A stretch of 64,000 nucleotides of DNA. Source: Myxacorys californica WJT36-NPBG1. GTDB taxonomy: Bacteria > Cyanobacteriota > Cyanobacteriia > Leptolyngbyales > Leptolyngbyaceae. The DNA is taken from NCBI GenBank assembly GCA_019359315.1, contig JAHHHO010000008.1:62001-126000 (forward strand), in the 5' to 3' direction. A program made the position numbers and the translations under genes. Shown in pieces: positions 1 to 63,438 of this stretch (the first letter of the stretch is position 1; each line of letters starts with the position of its first letter). The notes under the pieces were generated by a model, which did not search any database, was not told where the DNA came from, and saw nothing but the letters and a program-made list of their open reading frames with translations.

Positions 1-322
1 CAGTTTGGAGGACATAGACGCTCCTATGACAGAGAGAGGACAAAGCAAACCGAAAGTGGACTCATTCAACGCAGGTTTGCCGATTAAACTTTACAGGAAC
101 TCGGCCTATAGCGAGTAACCTATTTGGGTGAGAATACAGAACTGCATCTTTACGGATACTTTACATCTGATTCTAGAGCCTTGGGTGCCTCACTATATAG
201 CTTTAAGAACTCTTCATAAAGAATTAGGTGAACGTACTCTGTATCACTGGTATATGCAAGAGTTATAGAAATGTTCCGGAAATCGTTCGTTATTCCTTGC
301 TGAAGTAAAGCAAGAGTGCTCC
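1..322. other. Left-edge stretch, possible 3' end of a gene
   Basis: One plus-strand frame is open from base 2 to a TAA at 116-118 (38 codons) and could be the C-terminus of a gene cut by the window edge. It resembles no family I recognise and is short enough to be chance. From 119 to 322 I see no gene, hairpin or repeat; this part presumably holds the promoter of the gene starting at 323. Confidence 0.25.
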
Positions 323-1969
323 ATGACAGGCTGTGATCAAATTTCTCGTAATAAGCTCCTCCCGTTTCTATGGCTCTCGCAAAGTGTCTCTCAGGGGCGG
401 AGACAACAGCAAGTGAACCAGTTTAGCTTTCATAGCTTAGGACAATTTGTATTTTGGGTCAGCTTAGGAGTTTCAACCCCTGTTTGGTCTGCGCCGATGC
501 CGCTGTCTCAGCAAATTCCGCAAAATCGTGCAGAGAAGCTAGGCACGCTTGAAGTGCGCCTAGCGCCAAAGGCGCAAGCTCCGAAGGACATAGCGCAAAG
601 CCCAACTTTCAAAAAGCTGGAGTTGTTCAACTCTGAGGCCAATCGCGTAGGAGGGGCTAAAGAGCTGGTTGAGAAGACACAGAGTGAGGAGGTACAGAGC
701 CAAATTCCCAGTTCATTTAGTCAGACTAGAATCGTTTCGCAAGGAATTCTGAATCAGCCACTACAGAATCCGCTTCAGCCTTCACCGTGTTGGCAATCCT
801 TGAGTCGATCGCGCTGCTCGTTTCAAGCGAGCCAGGCGCGATTGAAGCAAACCAATTCTGACGGTGCAAACGCCCTGCAAGCGGCGCAAGCTCTCGATCC
901 AGAATTAGGAATCTTGCGAGTCGCACCGGAGACCGAGCGATCGCAAAATGAACTGGGAACGTTGCAAGTCGCACCAGAGACCGCACAAAACAGCGAGCTA
1001 GGAACGTTGCGAGTTGAGCCAGGGATGGACGACGAGCTAGGAACGTTGCGAGTCGCACCGGAGACGGCACAGCCAGATGAACTGGGAACCCTTGCGCCCC
1101 CTGATCTTAATGCTCAGTCAATTGATGGAGCCGCCGATCCAGAATTAGGAATATTAAGGTTGCAAGAAGACACCGTTCCACAACTTCCAGAACTGCCATC
1201 TCCTACCAAGCAAGCCTCTGTTTTCTTGCTGTCACGAATCGATTATTTTCGTACCACCAATGTTTTCTCGGGCATCGATCCCACCGATGATGGGCTAATC
1301 CGCTCAGGGGTGACGCTGTTTTATGCTCCCCGACTGGGACCTAAGACATTTTTGGTTACATCGATCGATGCAAACTTGATTCGCTACACGACTCTTGGAT
1401 CGACTCGTGCTACTCGCGCTAATAGCCAAGGCTTTCTCAACTATGACGAACTCCGGTTTCGAGCGGGCATTTTTCATCAACTGACCCCTCGCATGTCGGG
1501 GGAAATCGGCTGGAGTAATCAACAACTCTTTACAGCAAAAGAAGGATTGCAAACGATCTTTAGCGGCGATCGCTTCTTAGGTGAAAATGCCCTCCGCATC
1601 GAGTTGAACCGCCAAGATCAAATTGCTCGAAAGCTGACGCTAAATACGTATTATCAGTTTCGCCTAAATTTTTCTGACCCTAACGATCGCAGCCGCCTGA
1701 TCAATTCGCTGACAACATCTTTGAGCTACGACATTACCCCGAAGCTTCAAACCGCGATCGACTATCAAGTTGCGTGGTCACACTTCACTCAGCAGTCGCG
1801 AAATGATGTATTTAACCAGCTTGTGGGGCGTCTGAGCTATACGCTCAATCGGAGCAGCCAAGTCAATGTGTTTACAGGATTTAGCTTTGGCAATTCCTCT
1901 GAGCGTAATATTGATTTTAATGGGTTTGTTTTTGGGGCAGGGCTGGTATTTAACGTGCCACTGTTCTAG
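323..1969 (+). CDS. Outer-membrane beta-barrel candidate with ELGTLRV repeats
   Basis: 548 residues. A hydrophobic stretch with small residues (about 35-57, ending in VWSAP) looks like a late signal peptide. Residues 193-282 hold six spaced copies of an (D/N)ELG(T/I)L(R/Q)V-type motif, most followed by APET, at 13-21 residue intervals; a divergent copy lies at 72-78. The rest, about 300-548, alternates polar and aromatic/hydrophobic residues and ends in a terminal phenylalanine (NVPLF), typical of outer-membrane barrels recognised by the BAM complex. I infer a secreted barrel with a periplasmic repeat region; ligand and function are unknown. It stands alone, followed by a strong hairpin. Confidence 0.7.
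   Translation: MTGCDQISRNKLLPFLWLSQSVSQGRRQQQVNQFSFHSLGQFVFWVSLGVSTPVWSAPMPLSQQIPQNRAEKLGTLEVRLAPKAQAPKDIAQSPTFKKLELFNSEANRVGGAKELVEKTQSEEVQSQIPSSFSQTRIVSQGILNQPLQNPLQPSPCWQSLSRSRCSFQASQARLKQTNSDGANALQAAQALDPELGILRVAPETERSQNELGTLQVAPETAQNSELGTLRVEPGMDDELGTLRVAPETAQPDELGTLAPPDLNAQSIDGAADPELGILRLQEDTVPQLPELPSPTKQASVFLLSRIDYFRTTNVFSGIDPTDDGLIRSGVTLFYAPRLGPKTFLVTSIDANLIRYTTLGSTRATRANSQGFLNYDELRFRAGIFHQLTPRMSGEIGWSNQQLFTAKEGLQTIFSGDRFLGENALRIELNRQDQIARKLTLNTYYQFRLNFSDPNDRSRLINSLTTSLSYDITPKLQTAIDYQVAWSHFTQQSRNDVFNQLVGRLSYTLNRSSQVNVFTGFSFGNSSERNIDFNGFVFGAGLVFNVPLF
893..1165 (+). repeat. Coding tandem repeats (ELGTLRV units)
   Basis: Six imperfect repeats of about 39-63 bp lie inside the barrel-protein gene. 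Each encodes ELG-T/I-L-R/Q-V and most add APET. The nucleotide copies are similar enough (for example gagctaggaacgttgcgagt recurs) to suggest recent duplication or copy-number drift. Confidence 0.8.
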
Positions 1970-36872: not shown

Positions 36873-38039
<1,167 letters not shown>

Positions 38040-50412: not shown

Positions 50413-51696
50413 TTATTCGCCGGGTTTGATGATGACGATGCCGTAAGCGTCAGTTGGGAGGTACTGTTGAGCGGCAGCCTGAAGATCAGCGGCGGAGAGG
50501 GATTGAATATAGGCGGAGTAGCTGAAGGCGGGTTCTAAATCACCGACTAAGGTTTGGTAGTAGCCGTATAAACCAGCGCGATCGCTGGGCGTTTCATTGC
50601 CAAACGTAAAGTGATTGGCAACTTGAGTTTGAACGCGGGACAGCTCGGCTTCGGTCACGCGACCGGATTGTAGCTGTTCGATGTGGGCTACGATCGCGGC
50701 TTCTACAGCATCGATGTTTTCTACGGGCAACTGCGCTGATACCGCGAAAACGCCCTGGTGCAGGTAAGTCATATTACTCACCGACACGTTAGAGACTAAT
50801 CCCCGCTCTTCGCGTAAGTCTTTCACCAATCGAGCGGTTCTGCCATGACCCAGCACACTGGTGAGAACGTCTAGCTCGTAGGTATTCTGTAAGTCCGTCA
50901 AGCCCGGAACCCGCCATAACAGCATCAATCGAGCTTGCTTGAGAGTTGGGTCAGTGTACTCTTGGCGAACGATCTGGGTGAAAGACGTTTCAGCAGAGGG
51001 AGAGGAAATGTAGGGTGTGGGGCAAGAAGTGGAGGGCGCAAGCTGAGTGAAACTATCTTCAATGATTTGGATCAAGCGATCGACGGGCAGATTGCCAACT
51101 GCTACAGCCGTCATGGACTGAGGCTGATACCAAGCGGAGTGAAAATCTCGCATCTGTTGCGGAACGAGTTGTTCGATCACTGAAGTAGGACCTAAAACCT
51201 GACGGCGATAGGGCAGTCGCTCAAATGCCAATTCTGCCATGCGCTGATAGGTGCGACGGCGCGGGTTATCCTCAGAGCGGCGAATTTCTTCTAAGACCAC
51301 CGATCGTTCTCGCTCAAACCCATCATCTGGAATGCTGGCATTAAGCAACACATCCAGTTGAAGCGGCGCTAACTCGGCAAAATCTCGGGGAGCCGTTGTG
51401 ATGTAGTAGTGCGTATAGTCTTGGCTCGTCGCGGCATTCGTGACTGCACCGCGCTGCTCGATTTTTTGCTCAAACTCTCCGCTCTCAAGGCGCTGAGTTC
51501 CTTTGAAAATCATGTGTTCTAAAAAGTGAGCCATGCCGTTGATGGGAGCAGACTCGATCGCAGAACCGACGTTGAGCCACACATTGAGATTGACAGCATC
51601 GACGGGAATCTGTTCGGCAATGATCGTTAAGCCATTCGACAAACGATGCACTGTAGGAGAGTTTAGTTTCGGAGATTTAACTAGAATCGAAGTCAT
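50413..51696 (-). CDS. M16-family zinc metallopeptidase
   Basis: 427 residues. The inverted zinc motif H57-F-L-E60-H61 is present, with the third ligand about 75 residues on in VVLEEIRRSEDNP. Downstream M16 features (RRQVLGP, YQPQSMTAVAVGN, GRTARLVKDLREERGLVSNVS) are complete. Related enzymes are processing peptidases of mitochondria and PqqL-like bacterial proteases; substrate unknown. There is no signal peptide, so it is probably cytoplasmic. It is upstream of the fructosamine-kinase-like gene. Confidence 0.93.
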   Translation of the reverse strand: MTSILVKSPKLNSPTVHRLSNGLTIIAEQIPVDAVNLNVWLNVGSAIESAPINGMAHFLEHMIFKGTQRLESGEFEQKIEQRGAVTNAATSQDYTHYYITTAPRDFAELAPLQLDVLLNASIPDDGFERERSVVLEEIRRSEDNPRRRTYQRMAELAFERLPYRRQVLGPTSVIEQLVPQQMRDFHSAWYQPQSMTAVAVGNLPVDRLIQIIEDSFTQLAPSTSCPTPYISSPSAETSFTQIVRQEYTDPTLKQARLMLLWRVPGLTDLQNTYELDVLTSVLGHGRTARLVKDLREERGLVSNVSVSNMTYLHQGVFAVSAQLPVENIDAVEAAIVAHIEQLQSGRVTEAELSRVQTQVANHFTFGNETPSDRAGLYGYYQTLVGDLEPAFSYSAYIQSLSAADLQAAAQQYLPTDAYGIVIIKPGE

Positions 51697-51868: not shown

Positions 51869-51902
51869 TTAAGGGATATTAAGGATTAAGGGAAATTAAG
51901 GA
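51869..51902. repeat. Four ATTAAGG iterons
   Basis: Exact copies at 51869-51875, 51879-51885, 51886-51892 and 51896-51902. On the minus strand this reads CCTTAAT and lies about 175-205 bp upstream of the M16 peptidase start. Confidence 0.75.
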
Positions 51903-58077: not shown

Positions 58078-58137
58078 AATTGGTTCTACTTTGGAGCGAG
58101 ATTTAGTAGAAACGCTGAGAACTCAATTTAGTCAAGT

Positions 58138-58168
58138 CTTAACCTAGCATTAGCTAGTTCATTAACTT
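58138..58168 (+). promoter_or_regulatory. Candidate Pho box (SphR/PhoB-type)
   Basis: Three octamers spaced by 3 and 4 bp, CTTAACCT (58138-58145), ATTAGCTA (58149-58156) and ATTAACTT (58161-58168), resemble the cyanobacterial Pho-box unit PyTTAAPyPy(T/A). The first is perfect, the third has one mismatch and the second two. The site is 225 bp upstream of the phosphoesterase gene. Confidence 0.5.
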
Positions 58169-58392: not shown

Positions 58393-61300
58393 GTGCAGTC
58401 AACTTTCGAGTCTTTTGAGGGTCAACGAGTGTTCATAGATAGTTTTTTAATTGGAACATCTGCTTCTTCGAGTAATGGTGGTTTGACGACTAACATCGAG
58501 CAATCTCGCCGATCTCAGATCGATCTACAAGCCGCGCCTCAATCGTTGCAAGCAAGTAGCGCAAACGGTAGCCTAAATGCAGCCCTGACTTCTAACGCCA
58601 GTGGCACGGCAGCGTATACGACCCGTCAAGTGGGCGATATGCTTTATTTTGATGTGGCCGATTTTGTTCGTTCTACCCTTGGACTTCCCACCTCTGACGG
58701 CTCAGGTGGACAGAAAACCTTTGCGGTTTCTGGGGGAAACACCGTTACGATCGCAAACTTCGGCGGCATCGGTTCTAAACTCGAAGAAGATCGGATCGCG
58801 TTGCCAGAGAATGTGAAGTTTGAGCAGCTCTCGATCGTGTCAGGCACGGGCGAAAACGCTAGCGATACACTGGTGAAGTTAACAGACACAGGGTCAGTCT
58901 TAGCGCTTCTCAAGGGCATTAAACCGACTGCGATCGATGAGCTAACTTTCGTTCGTCTAGACAGCAACAATCAAGTCATTCCAGACGTGAAAACAGAGCT
59001 GGTGAAACGCTCTGTGCTGCCCGCTAACACCTTCGCAACGGGTGCAACTTCTGGGCAATTTCTGGCGCTTAACAACGATGGCAGTGTGAGTGCAGTCAAC
59101 GCGAATGGAGTTCCTGTTCCGTTTAACGCTCCTAATGGTCAATCCGTGCAAGGCTTCTCTGCGGTGCTACCCGGCGCGAAAGCAGGAACTTACTTGGTGC
59201 TATCCGATAATGGCTACGGCTCGAAAGCCAATTCTGCTGATGCGTTGCTGCGCTTTTATGCCATTGAGCCAAACTTTGAAACCGGAAGTGTTTCTCCAGT
59301 CAATCTAAAAACGGGAGACAAGTTAGAGGGCTTTACCTCCGATAGTTTCGTTCAACTCAACGACAAGAACGGCGTCCTTAAAGGGATTCAAACGATCGTT
59401 GCCGATCTAGAAACCTACCCCAACAGCGACAAGATTCAAGCGGGTGGAATTCCGGTCGATCCGAGCATTAAGCAAAACCGCTTGCTAACCGGAGCCGACT
59501 TTGATCTCGAATCGTTCCGTCGCGCTGCGGATGGAACCTACTGGTTTGGCGAAGAATTTGGTCCATTCCTGCTGCACACTGATGCCAACGGGACACTGTT
59601 AAAAGCCCCGATCGCAACCCCCAACCCGTCTAAACTCAACACGCTGAATGGTCAAGATCCGCTCGTGATCGGTCACCGAGGCGCTTCTGGGTATCGTCCT
59701 GAGCACACGCTCGAAGCGTATCGATATGCGATCGAGCTAGGCGCTGACTTCGTTGAACCGGACGTAGTATCCACCAAAGACGGCGTGCTGATTGCCCGTC
59801 ACGAAGTCAACATCAAAGATACAACCGATGTCGCAGACCGTCCTGAGTTTGCCGATCGCTTCACCACAAAAACGATCGATGGCACAGAGGAAAGCGGCTG
59901 GTTTGCTGACGACTTCACGCTGGCAGAAATCAAAACTCTGCGAGCGAAAGAGCGGTTAGCGTTCCGAGATCAATCGTTCAACGGTCAGTTTGAAATTCCA
60001 ACGCTGCAAGAAATCATCGATTTCGTGAAAACTGTCGAAGCGACAACGGGAAAGAAAATTGGCATCTACCCCGAAACCAAACATCCCACCTATCACACGG
60101 AGAAAGGGCTGGCGCTAGAAGAACCGTTGGTGAAACTTCTCAAAGACAACAATTTTACCGATCCAAGTCGCGTCTTCATTCAATCCTTTGAAGTTGGCAA
60201 TCTGAAGAAGCTGAACGGCTTGATTGATGTGCCGCTCGTGCAATTGATGGACGCCGCTGATACAAATTTAGACGGTTCACTGGTCGAGGTGAAACCTTAC
60301 GATTTTGTTGCAAGCGGCGATTCGCGCACCTATAAAGATCTGCGATCGCCCGAAGGATTGGCAGAAGTGGCGACCTACGCGGATGGAATTGGTCCTTGGA
60401 AACGCATGATTGTCTCGGTCAAAGGGACGGATGCGAATGGCGATGGCAAAGCGGATGATGTCAATGGTGATGGTGCGGTCAATGATGCCGATAAGACGCT
60501 AACTCCTTCAACGACGCTGGTACAAGACGCGCACAACGCGGGTCTGCTGGTTCATCCTTACACCTTCCGCAACGAACCCCGCTACCTAGCATCGGATTAC
60601 AAAGGCGATCCAGAAAAAGAGATTCGTCAGTTTATTGAACTCGGAGTAGACGGCTACTTCACTGATTTTTCAGACACGGGCGCGGCAGCAAAAGCCTACG
60701 AGACACAAGATTTTGTGCGATCGCCAGATAACCCCGCGTTTGCCAATCTCTCTGAAGCCGATAAGGTGAAGGCAGCGAATCTGGCTCGTTCTAGAGGTTT
60801 TGAGGGCATGGCGAGCAGTCCTGATGGCTCTAAACTCTACACGCTGCTAGAAGGGGCAGTTACTACCGATTCAAATCAGAATCGCCTGTTTATTTCTGAG
60901 TTTGATACCAGTACCAAAAAATACACTGACAACGTTTACGCCTACCGCTTGAATGCTCCCAATCGTGCGATCGGGGACATGACGGCGATTAACGATCATG
61001 AGTTCATCGTGATTGAACGGGATAATGGTCAGGGTGATGCAAGTGATCCGGCGGTCACCAATCCAGCCCGATCGAAGAAGCTCTACAAAATCGATATCAA
61101 CCAAATCGATCGCGAGGGCTTTGTCAAGAAAGAACTGCTAGCGGATCTGCTCAACATTGCCGATCCATCTGGAATCGGAGGCGATGGAACCAAGAATGGC
61201 GTGTTTACCTTCCCCTTCGTCACCATCGAAGATGTGTTGATTCTTGACCCTCAAACGCTATTAGTCGCAAACGACAACAACTATCCATTTAGCGTTGGTC

Positions 61301-63438
61301 GCAAACCGGGGCAAGCCGATAACAGCGAGTTTATTCAGATCAAGTTAGATCAATCGCTCGATCTAGCGTTGCCTGCTCCCACTCCTAAACCCAAAGTAGT
61401 TGTGATTTCTCTCGATGGCGCAACCCCTCGCCTCGTAAATCAGTACTTAGAGTCAGGAGTTTTGAAGCAGGATGAAGGCTTAGGACTGTTAAAAAATAAA
61501 GGCGTTTCTGCCGATCGCAACGAAACGATCACACCTTCGCTCACGGCTCCGAGTCACATTGCGATCGCAACAGGCTCCAACGCTGCCAACAATGACATCA
61601 ACGCCAACAGCTTCCACTTAGTTGCAAGTCCATTTACCCAAAATATTAGTGGATTTGGCGCACCGATTGGCGGTTACTCGTTTGATGTGCATGGACCGAC
61701 CGAAAGTGCTGAGCCAACGGCTGAACCGCTTTGGATCAACTTGCGAAACAACGGTAAGAAAGTTGTCGCCGCCACGTTTCCGGGTGCGGATGGTGTCGAT
61801 GTCAAAATTCCGGGATTGCCAGACAGTCCGATCGTTCAACCCGCTAGCGATCGTACCGTCGATTACACCGTTCCCTTTGGTGCGTTTGCAGGCGTGGGAG
61901 CGCAAGGCTTCAACCTAACGGCAGCCGATTTTGCAACGGCTAGCGATCGCACTGTTTCGCAGCTTGCTAGCGCAGGTAAAACGGTTTATAGTCCGGTGCT
62001 GCAAACGAAAAATTCGTTTGACATATTCACTGTGGGCGGTGTGAACTATGACATTCAAGCTGCCGCTCTAGACACTACAAACGACAACAAAGTTGACTAC
62101 GATACGCTGGTCTTCTTCGATGCCACGTTAGGAATTCAATCGGGTCCGTTTAACCTGCCGTCAACGGGTCCGGCTTATGTGAAAGCGGGTAGCAAAACGT
62201 CTAGCCCGTTCTATCTGGAAGGAAGCTCTAACAAAGCGGGAACGGCGTTCTATGTCAGCAATTTCGCGCCTGACCTTTCGACCGTCCGGTTTGCTCGCTA
62301 CTCTGCCAACTTCATTCCTGCTACCCCTGCGGTGCAAGCGAATGTAGACGACATCAACAACAATGTTGGATTCTGGGCACCCCAACCCGATTTCCGGATT
62401 CCGCAGAAACTTAGTCCTGGATTTAACACGTTCTCTGACGCCGAGTTAGAAGCGATCTACGACGATCAGGTTCGGAGTTTTGTCGATTATCAAACTCGCG
62501 TTGCGCTGCGATCGATTACTCAAAACCCTGATTCCGATTTGGTTCTCACTTACATTGAGCAACCTGATGGTTCGCAACATCAGTTCTTAATTAGCGATCC
62601 TCGTCAGGCAAACAATCCCCTTGATCCCACCTCGATTGGAACTGGACAAGACAAGGCAAAGATCGAGCGCTACAACTCCTATGTAGAAACGGCTTACAAG
62701 GCGGCTGATGCTGCGGTTCAAAAAATCATTCAGACTGTTGGAGTGGATAGCAATGGCATTCCTAATAGCGACATCATTGTTGTTTCCGATCACGGATTTG
62801 CTCCGTTTTACACCTCGGTTAACGTGAACAACTTCCTCAAGAGCCAAGGGTTTGACTCAAACAAAGTTCGTGCGGTCACATCGGGTCCGGCAGTTAATGT
62901 CTACTTCAACCTGCAAGGGCGCGAACCCAACGGAACTGTGAGCCGCGAAGAATATGTGACCTTGCAGAAGCAGGTGACAGAAGCCCTCAAGAACTTTGTA
63001 GACACCAACCCGAAATATGTCGATGGAACAAGACCTGTGTTTGACAAGATCTACGATCGCCCGCTTCCAACTGACCTAAACGATCCATCGTTTGGTCGAG
63101 GAACCAGTGAGTTTATCGGACAAGACTCTGGCGATGTGTTTGCTCTGCTGACCGAAGGCTATAACTTCGATGGAACTCAAACTCCAGTTGTGCAACGCTT
63201 GGGAGATGCGCCGACCCAGACTCCTGTGTTCTCAGTGCCCAGCTTCTACGGCGCTCACGGGTACGATCCAACGTCGCCTAACATGAGCGCGATTTTCTAC
63301 GCGGCTGGACCTACTTTTAGTAACGGGACGCTTTCTCAAGTGAAGAACATTGATATTGCCCCCACAATCTCGAAGATTCTAGGCGTAGAGCTAGCTTCAA
63401 CTGTGCAAGGAACGCCGATTGATACTTCCAACCCATAA
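58393..63438 (+). CDS. Multi-phosphoesterase: phytase-like domain with nested GDPD, plus phosphodiesterase
   Basis: 1681 residues from a GTG; a TAA lies three codons upstream. Order: an unrecognised beta-rich start (1-205), the first half of an esterase-like-of-phytase domain (about 210-410, with [11 protein letters not shown] and [10 protein letters not shown]), a GDPD domain (424-765, [18 protein letters not shown] with His428, EPDVV, YPETKHP, DGYFTDF), the second half of the phytase-like domain (770-985, [16 protein letters not shown]), and a nucleotide-pyrophosphatase/phosphodiesterase domain (1001-1681) with D1008, candidate nucleophile Thr1051 (LTAPSH) and [10 protein letters not shown] Ca-binding-like DxNGDG pair (680-701) is in the GDPD. 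No signal peptide is visible. Probably scavenges phosphate from organic phosphates; location uncertain. Confidence 0.85.

Follow-up and report, generated by a model that had tools for sequence, protein, structure and literature searches.

Can a complete glycerophosphodiester phosphodiesterase (GDPD) reside within another domain of the same polypeptide, and what would such an arrangement do? This question is raised by an open reading frame (ORF) near the end of the window, i.e., the 64,000-nt stretch of the Myxacorys californica WJT36-NPBG1 genome analysed here (GCA_019359315.1, contig JAHHHO010000008.1, positions 62,001 to 126,000 of the forward strand). An earlier note had proposed from sequence motifs that the encoded protein carries a GDPD nested in a phytase-like domain and followed by a second phosphodiesterase (PDE). 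Positions refer to the window, and the features discussed are collected in Table 1.

Domain architecture of the window protein

Pfam searches of the 1681-aa protein returned, in this order, a first stretch of PF13449 (Phytase-like), PF03009 (GDPD), a second stretch of PF13449, and PF01663. The PF13449 match in two stretches reached 3.6e-53 (181.8 bits, curated cut-off 27.6), with the order of profile positions preserved across the insert, and PF03009 was matched at residues 428-762 (2.2e-52, 179.1 bits, cut-off 23.6), so that a complete GDPD separates the two flanks, as had been supposed. On an un-nested relative, PF13449 covered positions 1-284 of 284 in a single stretch. Un-nested relatives (405-469 aa) can be aligned with the window protein on either side of the insert; only the middle block is missing from them, and the empty site falls cleanly between ATPNP and FVRSPDNP. 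The two segments that had suggested the nesting (ten letters at residue 386, twelve at 801) were located where the earlier note had placed them; its statement that they lie side by side in ordinary family members holds in that one unbroken PF13449 match spans both, but a few tens of residues still separate them.

Only two more in-frame codons lie between the upstream stop and the GTG start. In the N-terminal region (58393-58990), the module that is like the RTX-side segment of relatives is present while the repeats themselves are absent (no PF00353 match to RTX nonapeptide repeats in the window protein by Pfam search; Phormidesmis does have RTX repeats). No signal peptide was recognisable in the window protein, which may nevertheless be exported.

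Table 1 Features of the locus (window coordinates)
Feature	Position	Strand	Details
Predicted SphR/Pho-box array TTTAGTCA agt CTTAACCT agc ATTAGCTA gtt CATTAACT	58127..58167	+	four 8-mers, 11-bp period, 226-266 bp upstream of GTG
1681-aa ORF, GTG start	58393..63438	+	N-terminal module, split propeller with nested GDPD, linker, NPP-type phosphodiesterase
N-terminal module, ~residues 87-190	58651..58962	+	resembles stretch adjoining RTX repeats in relatives
Propeller part 1, ~residues 205-409, blades 1-3	59005..59620	+	invariant D272, N273, D283, E373, E388
Inserted cassette, ~residues 410-773	59621..60711	+	linker LNTLNGQ (415-421), GlpQ-type GDPD (~417-763), exit linker; sequence-based boundaries
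GDPD catalytic/metal residues (presumed roles)	59674..60077	+	H428-R429, E455, D457, H470, E561; alignment with E. coli GlpQ
Propeller part 2, ~residues 774-992, blades 4-6	60712..61368	+	invariant E804, E820, D826, E875, D877, E946, N960, D961, N962; near-invariant D862
Fusion linker LPAPTPKPK, residues 993-1001	61369..61395	+	replaces stop of relatives' nested protein and signal-like segment of separate PDE
NPP-type phosphodiesterase domain (PF01663)	61399..63435	+	D1008, T1051, D1392, H1396, D1466, H1467, H1622

Structure models of the nest

Residues 200-995 of the window protein were modelled with AlphaFold from a 31-sequence alignment (pLDDT 81, pTM 0.73). Fold-alignment ranges are given as first and last residue only. 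The flanks of the model were aligned with 7plb (xylonolactonase; Z 14.4, 240 residues, model range 2..796) and with 4gnc (SMP30; Z 14.1, 253 residues), and the single continuous propellers 7plb, 4gnc, and 9m58 (a D. radiodurans protein) were each aligned over about 240-253 residues, from 1-2 to 790-796. A model of the un-nested propeller of Microseira (pTM 0.90) matched propellers of this class, at Z 14-15. The alignment ranges are strong, though indirect, evidence that the two flanks (~205-409 and 774-992) fold into one beta-propeller that carries the GDPD as an insertion, and profile search, un-nested relatives, and structure prediction agree on the nesting. The alternatives named in the earlier note were both addressed: independent flanking domains are rejected by the un-nested relatives and the structure models, and a family match was found for the flanks.

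The closest relative type of the nested GDPD is E. coli GlpQ (1t8q, 1ydy), with which it has the fold and the catalytic residues in common (1t8q: Z 37.9, 307 residues, 2.4 A); the catalytic and metal-binding roles of the residues in Table 1 are presumed from family knowledge. Unlike the window GDPD, which sits inside a propeller, GlpQ is a free-standing periplasmic enzyme.

By strand order, the GDPD follows the outermost strand of blade 3 and precedes the innermost one of blade 4. Loops that join consecutive blades in this way are found, in propellers, on the face where strand A starts. Because the blade 3-blade 4 loop lies there, the GDPD would be situated on the propeller face bearing the invariant carboxylates described below.

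Conserved carboxylates and the role of the propeller

Across 35 sequences, 14 D/E/N positions were invariant among those tallied and D862 was nearly so (33/35). With strands taken from the un-nested model, the start of strand A in blades 3-6 is acidic (E373, E804, and E946 invariant, with D862 as the fourth), as is the end of strand B (E388, E820, E875, D961). We infer that these conserved carboxylates form a metal site.

The fold of a propeller is by itself no sign of a phosphatase. No solved structure was matched by PF13449 at E up to 1, and neither BPP (beta-propeller phytase) nor PhoX was among the fold matches listed, an absence that does not in itself count against them. Identity of the window propeller with a BPP phytase was rejected, as PF02333 gave no match to the window protein, with E values up to 1 considered; that profile is present in other cyanobacterial polyproteins. 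It is possible, if on balance rather unlikely, that the propeller has no catalytic role and serves as a scaffold or binds substrates or surfaces, in which case only the GDPD and the PDE would hydrolyse and the nest would serve to display the GDPD. This reading is in keeping with the variety of the best fold matches (an SOD-associated propeller, lactonases, DFPase, glycosidases), among which no one enzyme class prevails, and with the lack of a solved relative in the PF13449 search. A catalytic propeller is favoured by the (near-)invariance of the carboxylates in blades 3-6, a pattern typical of a metal site, and by the occurrence of un-nested PF13449 proteins on their own.

Evolutionary history of the nest

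Phylogenies were evaluated for the window clade, comprising the window protein, two Phormidesmis proteins, G117, and G293. In the rooted tree, the propeller of this clade groups with un-nested propellers (support 100/99). With closer outgroups, whose branches are still long, a single propeller clade of all nested proteins was rejected (p-AU 0.024); in a first test, in which the window clade was free to sit on the middle branch, p-AU was 0.24. The GDPD of the window clade falls inside the other nested GDPDs, and its exclusion was rejected in a rooted test with closer but long-branched outgroups (p-AU 0.013; 0.078 in an earlier test with a single long outgroup).

The GDPD looks like an exchanged cassette, because window GDPD and GDPDs of the main nested group are up to 79% identical yet the propellers of the window clade share only 45-60% identity with their counterparts in that group. 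Pairs between window clade and main group exceed the trend of main-main pairs by 19.8 points on average (sd 7.8, the pairs not being independent). The sequence following the insert is as in un-nested proteins, and the entry linker as in the main nested group. The simplest reading is that the GDPD is a cassette exchanged at one site by recombination.

Descent of all nested proteins from a single insertion by vertical inheritance, with loss of the GDPD in the un-nested relatives of the window clade, appears improbable: such a history is consistent with the identical insertion site and similar linker (LNTLNGQ) in both groups, with a loss in another branch (L032-L034, see below), and with the non-significant single-outgroup test, but both rooted tests reject such a history, the window-clade GDPDs exceed the identity to the main group that the propellers predict by about 20 points on average, and a flank of un-nested type follows the insert.

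Separately, three un-nested propellers (L032, L033, L034) branch within the nested clade, which points to loss of the GDPD in these lineages.

C-terminal phosphodiesterase and its fusion

An NPP-type phosphodiesterase with a candidate Thr nucleophile had been expected after the nest, and PF01663 was matched there with 1e-32 (114.5 bits, cut-off 23). The domain was aligned with the bacterial NPP 2gsn across the Thr, DH, and HGYDP motifs. Thr1051 is the candidate nucleophile, and six further NPP metal-ligand positions are present: D1008, D1392, H1396, D1466, H1467, and H1622, of which D1392 and H1396 were assigned by eye. The nucleophile Thr and the metal-ligand motifs of type-I phosphodiesterases are common to both proteins; 2gsn differs in being free-standing and shorter, and overall similarity is weak (E 4e-11).

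The PDE lies outside the nest and is normally a separate protein that has here been fused on; in close relatives it has about 750 aa and an N-terminal hydrophobic, signal-like segment. Among 390 class members, both sides of the join were covered by one match in the window protein only. It is very unlikely that two separate genes were joined artificially, by a mistake in sequencing or assembly: the fusion is known from one genome only and the two parts lie on different contigs in the closely related Phormidesmis, but the join is in frame through a Pro-rich linker, the stop of the first gene and the signal-like segment of the PDE are cleanly gone, no second, separate PDE copy was found by genome search in the window's genome, and another genome has both modules in a single ORF in different order.

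A predicted Pho-box array upstream of the gene

Candidate SphR sites were scored with a matrix of 27 non-duplicate cyanobacterial site rows (PMC1906773, Table 1). Two overlapping triplets, at 58127 and 58138, ranked first and second of all window positions on both strands, and 2/1000 shuffles of the upstream region scored as high as the array. At least three tandem CTTAACCT-like 8-mers with 3-bp linkers are thus found upstream of the window gene, and the score at the array is high with the 3-bp spacer only. Upstream regions of relatives scored >=15 in 37/77 cases (relatives not being independent owing to common ancestry), compared with 24/261 for other ORFs and 1/77 for reversed sequences; with other spacer lengths, 2-12/77 reached this score. 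From these sites, the window gene is predicted to be regulated by SphR/Pho under phosphate starvation. A gene comparable by annotation is NSP_RS02895 of Nodularia spumigena, a "glycerophosphoryl diester phosphodiesterase (phytase domain)" whose annotation names both window domains and which is strongly upregulated under P limitation, by a log2 fold of 4.6-5.5 (PMC9846622).

Elsewhere in the window, two Pho-box-like triplets on the minus strand, weaker than the array, lie upstream of a short-chain dehydrogenase gene (triplet at 37909, score 16.0; gene 36873-37637, minus strand) and of an M16 peptidase gene (triplet at 51883, score 15.5; gene 50413-51696, minus strand).

Distribution and related architectures

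Our own profiles for the propeller N part (PN), GDPD (GD), propeller C part (PC), and PDE were run on all ORFs of the loci. About 70 nested loci were found in cyanobacteria, roughly 30 of them PN-GD-PC and 40 PN-GD-GD-PC. The split is far above chance, since it is kept in these ~70 loci. The suggestion that similar fusions exist in other cyanobacteria is borne out for the nest; the nest with a C-terminal PDE was found in the window only, and other orders exist.

The two nested proteins of Phormidesmis priestleyi (L049, L050) have the same propeller, insertion site, and GlpQ-type GDPD (79-80% identity over the nested part) without a fused PDE, and that of strain ULC007 carries N-terminal RTX repeats. 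Many other cyanobacterial nested proteins likewise lack the fused PDE and hold two GDPDs at the window's insertion site. Un-nested arrangements occur as three adjacent genes (propeller and two GDPDs; Microseira, L116) or as one ORF with the GDPD after the propeller (uncultured Synechococcales, L115).

Several window modules also occur in one chain in cyanobacterial multi-phosphatase polyproteins, which differ from the window protein in order and partners and are much larger (2273-2847 aa): a single 2847-aa ORF reads PDE-PhoD-DUF11-phytase-like[GDPDx2]-DUF4114 (L129), and two others PDE-phytase-like-BPP phytase-PhoD (L130, L132). In L131, a nested ORF lies 22 bp upstream of a PDE-phytase-like ORF. 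Over L129-L132, ORFs of 1133-2847 aa chain PDE, PhoD, phytase-like, BPP phytase, GDPD, or PhoX-like modules in varying order.

Outside cyanobacteria, nested homologues with 47% identity were detected on two Deinococcus plasmids (L143, 3441-5666, D. radiodurans MP1 plasmid; L144, 432-2669). The D. radiodurans MP1 protein DR_RS16015 (WP_227086047.1) shows the same nested order, with this identity extending over the whole nested part; it is without a PDE and is annotated as "glycerophosphodiester phosphodiesterase family protein", the nest being unmentioned. The neighbours of these two genes are genes for class Ib ribonucleotide reductase or for a transposase.

No description of the nest itself was found in open-licence full texts. 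So far, the three-part order is known from the window protein only, and the nest is widespread yet undescribed in such searchable texts.

Proposed function and implications

Probably, the window protein is a Pho-regulated multi-enzyme scavenger of organic phosphate with a nested, exchangeable GDPD cassette and a fused PDE. This proposal rests on the domain content, the empty site in relatives, the one-propeller model, the conserved active-site residues, the Pho-box array, and the discordant trees; catalysis by each part, metal use, secretion, and cooperation of the parts are inferred. At phosphate starvation, the SphR/Pho system would turn on the gene, and a PF13449 beta-propeller would be assembled from its two separated parts, with the GDPD inserted in the blade 3-blade 4 loop on the face of the putative metal site and a type-I phosphodiesterase/nucleotide pyrophosphatase joined C-terminally via the Pro-rich linker. 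The GDPD would convert glycerophosphodiesters to glycerol-3-phosphate and alcohol, the PDE would cut other phosphodiesters or nucleotides via Thr1051 and two metal ions, and the propeller would act on phosphomonoesters, e.g., the GDPD product, or bind substrates. A single polypeptide may therefore, as the earlier note had suggested, hydrolyse several classes of organic phosphate. In the window clade, the cassette would have come from another nested lineage into an un-nested-type propeller at the same site.

A more speculative extension, which we regard as unlikely, is that the GDPD sits over a metal-lined propeller mouth and passes glycerol-3-phosphate directly to the propeller, which would remove the phosphate, i.e., a two-step diester-to-phosphate enzyme with an exchangeable cassette, to which a third phosphodiesterase has been added.

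With the scavenger proposal, PF13449, for which no match among solved structures was obtained here, gains a testable role. At one propeller loop, a whole enzyme domain has been acquired, duplicated, and lost, and it has apparently passed from lineage to lineage. The finding bears on the annotation of such genes, because they are labelled only "GDPD" or "phytase", and on the use of dissolved organic phosphorus by cyanobacteria, where different enzymes that hydrolyse phosphate esters have repeatedly been fused into one polypeptide, in this case with predicted control by phosphate.
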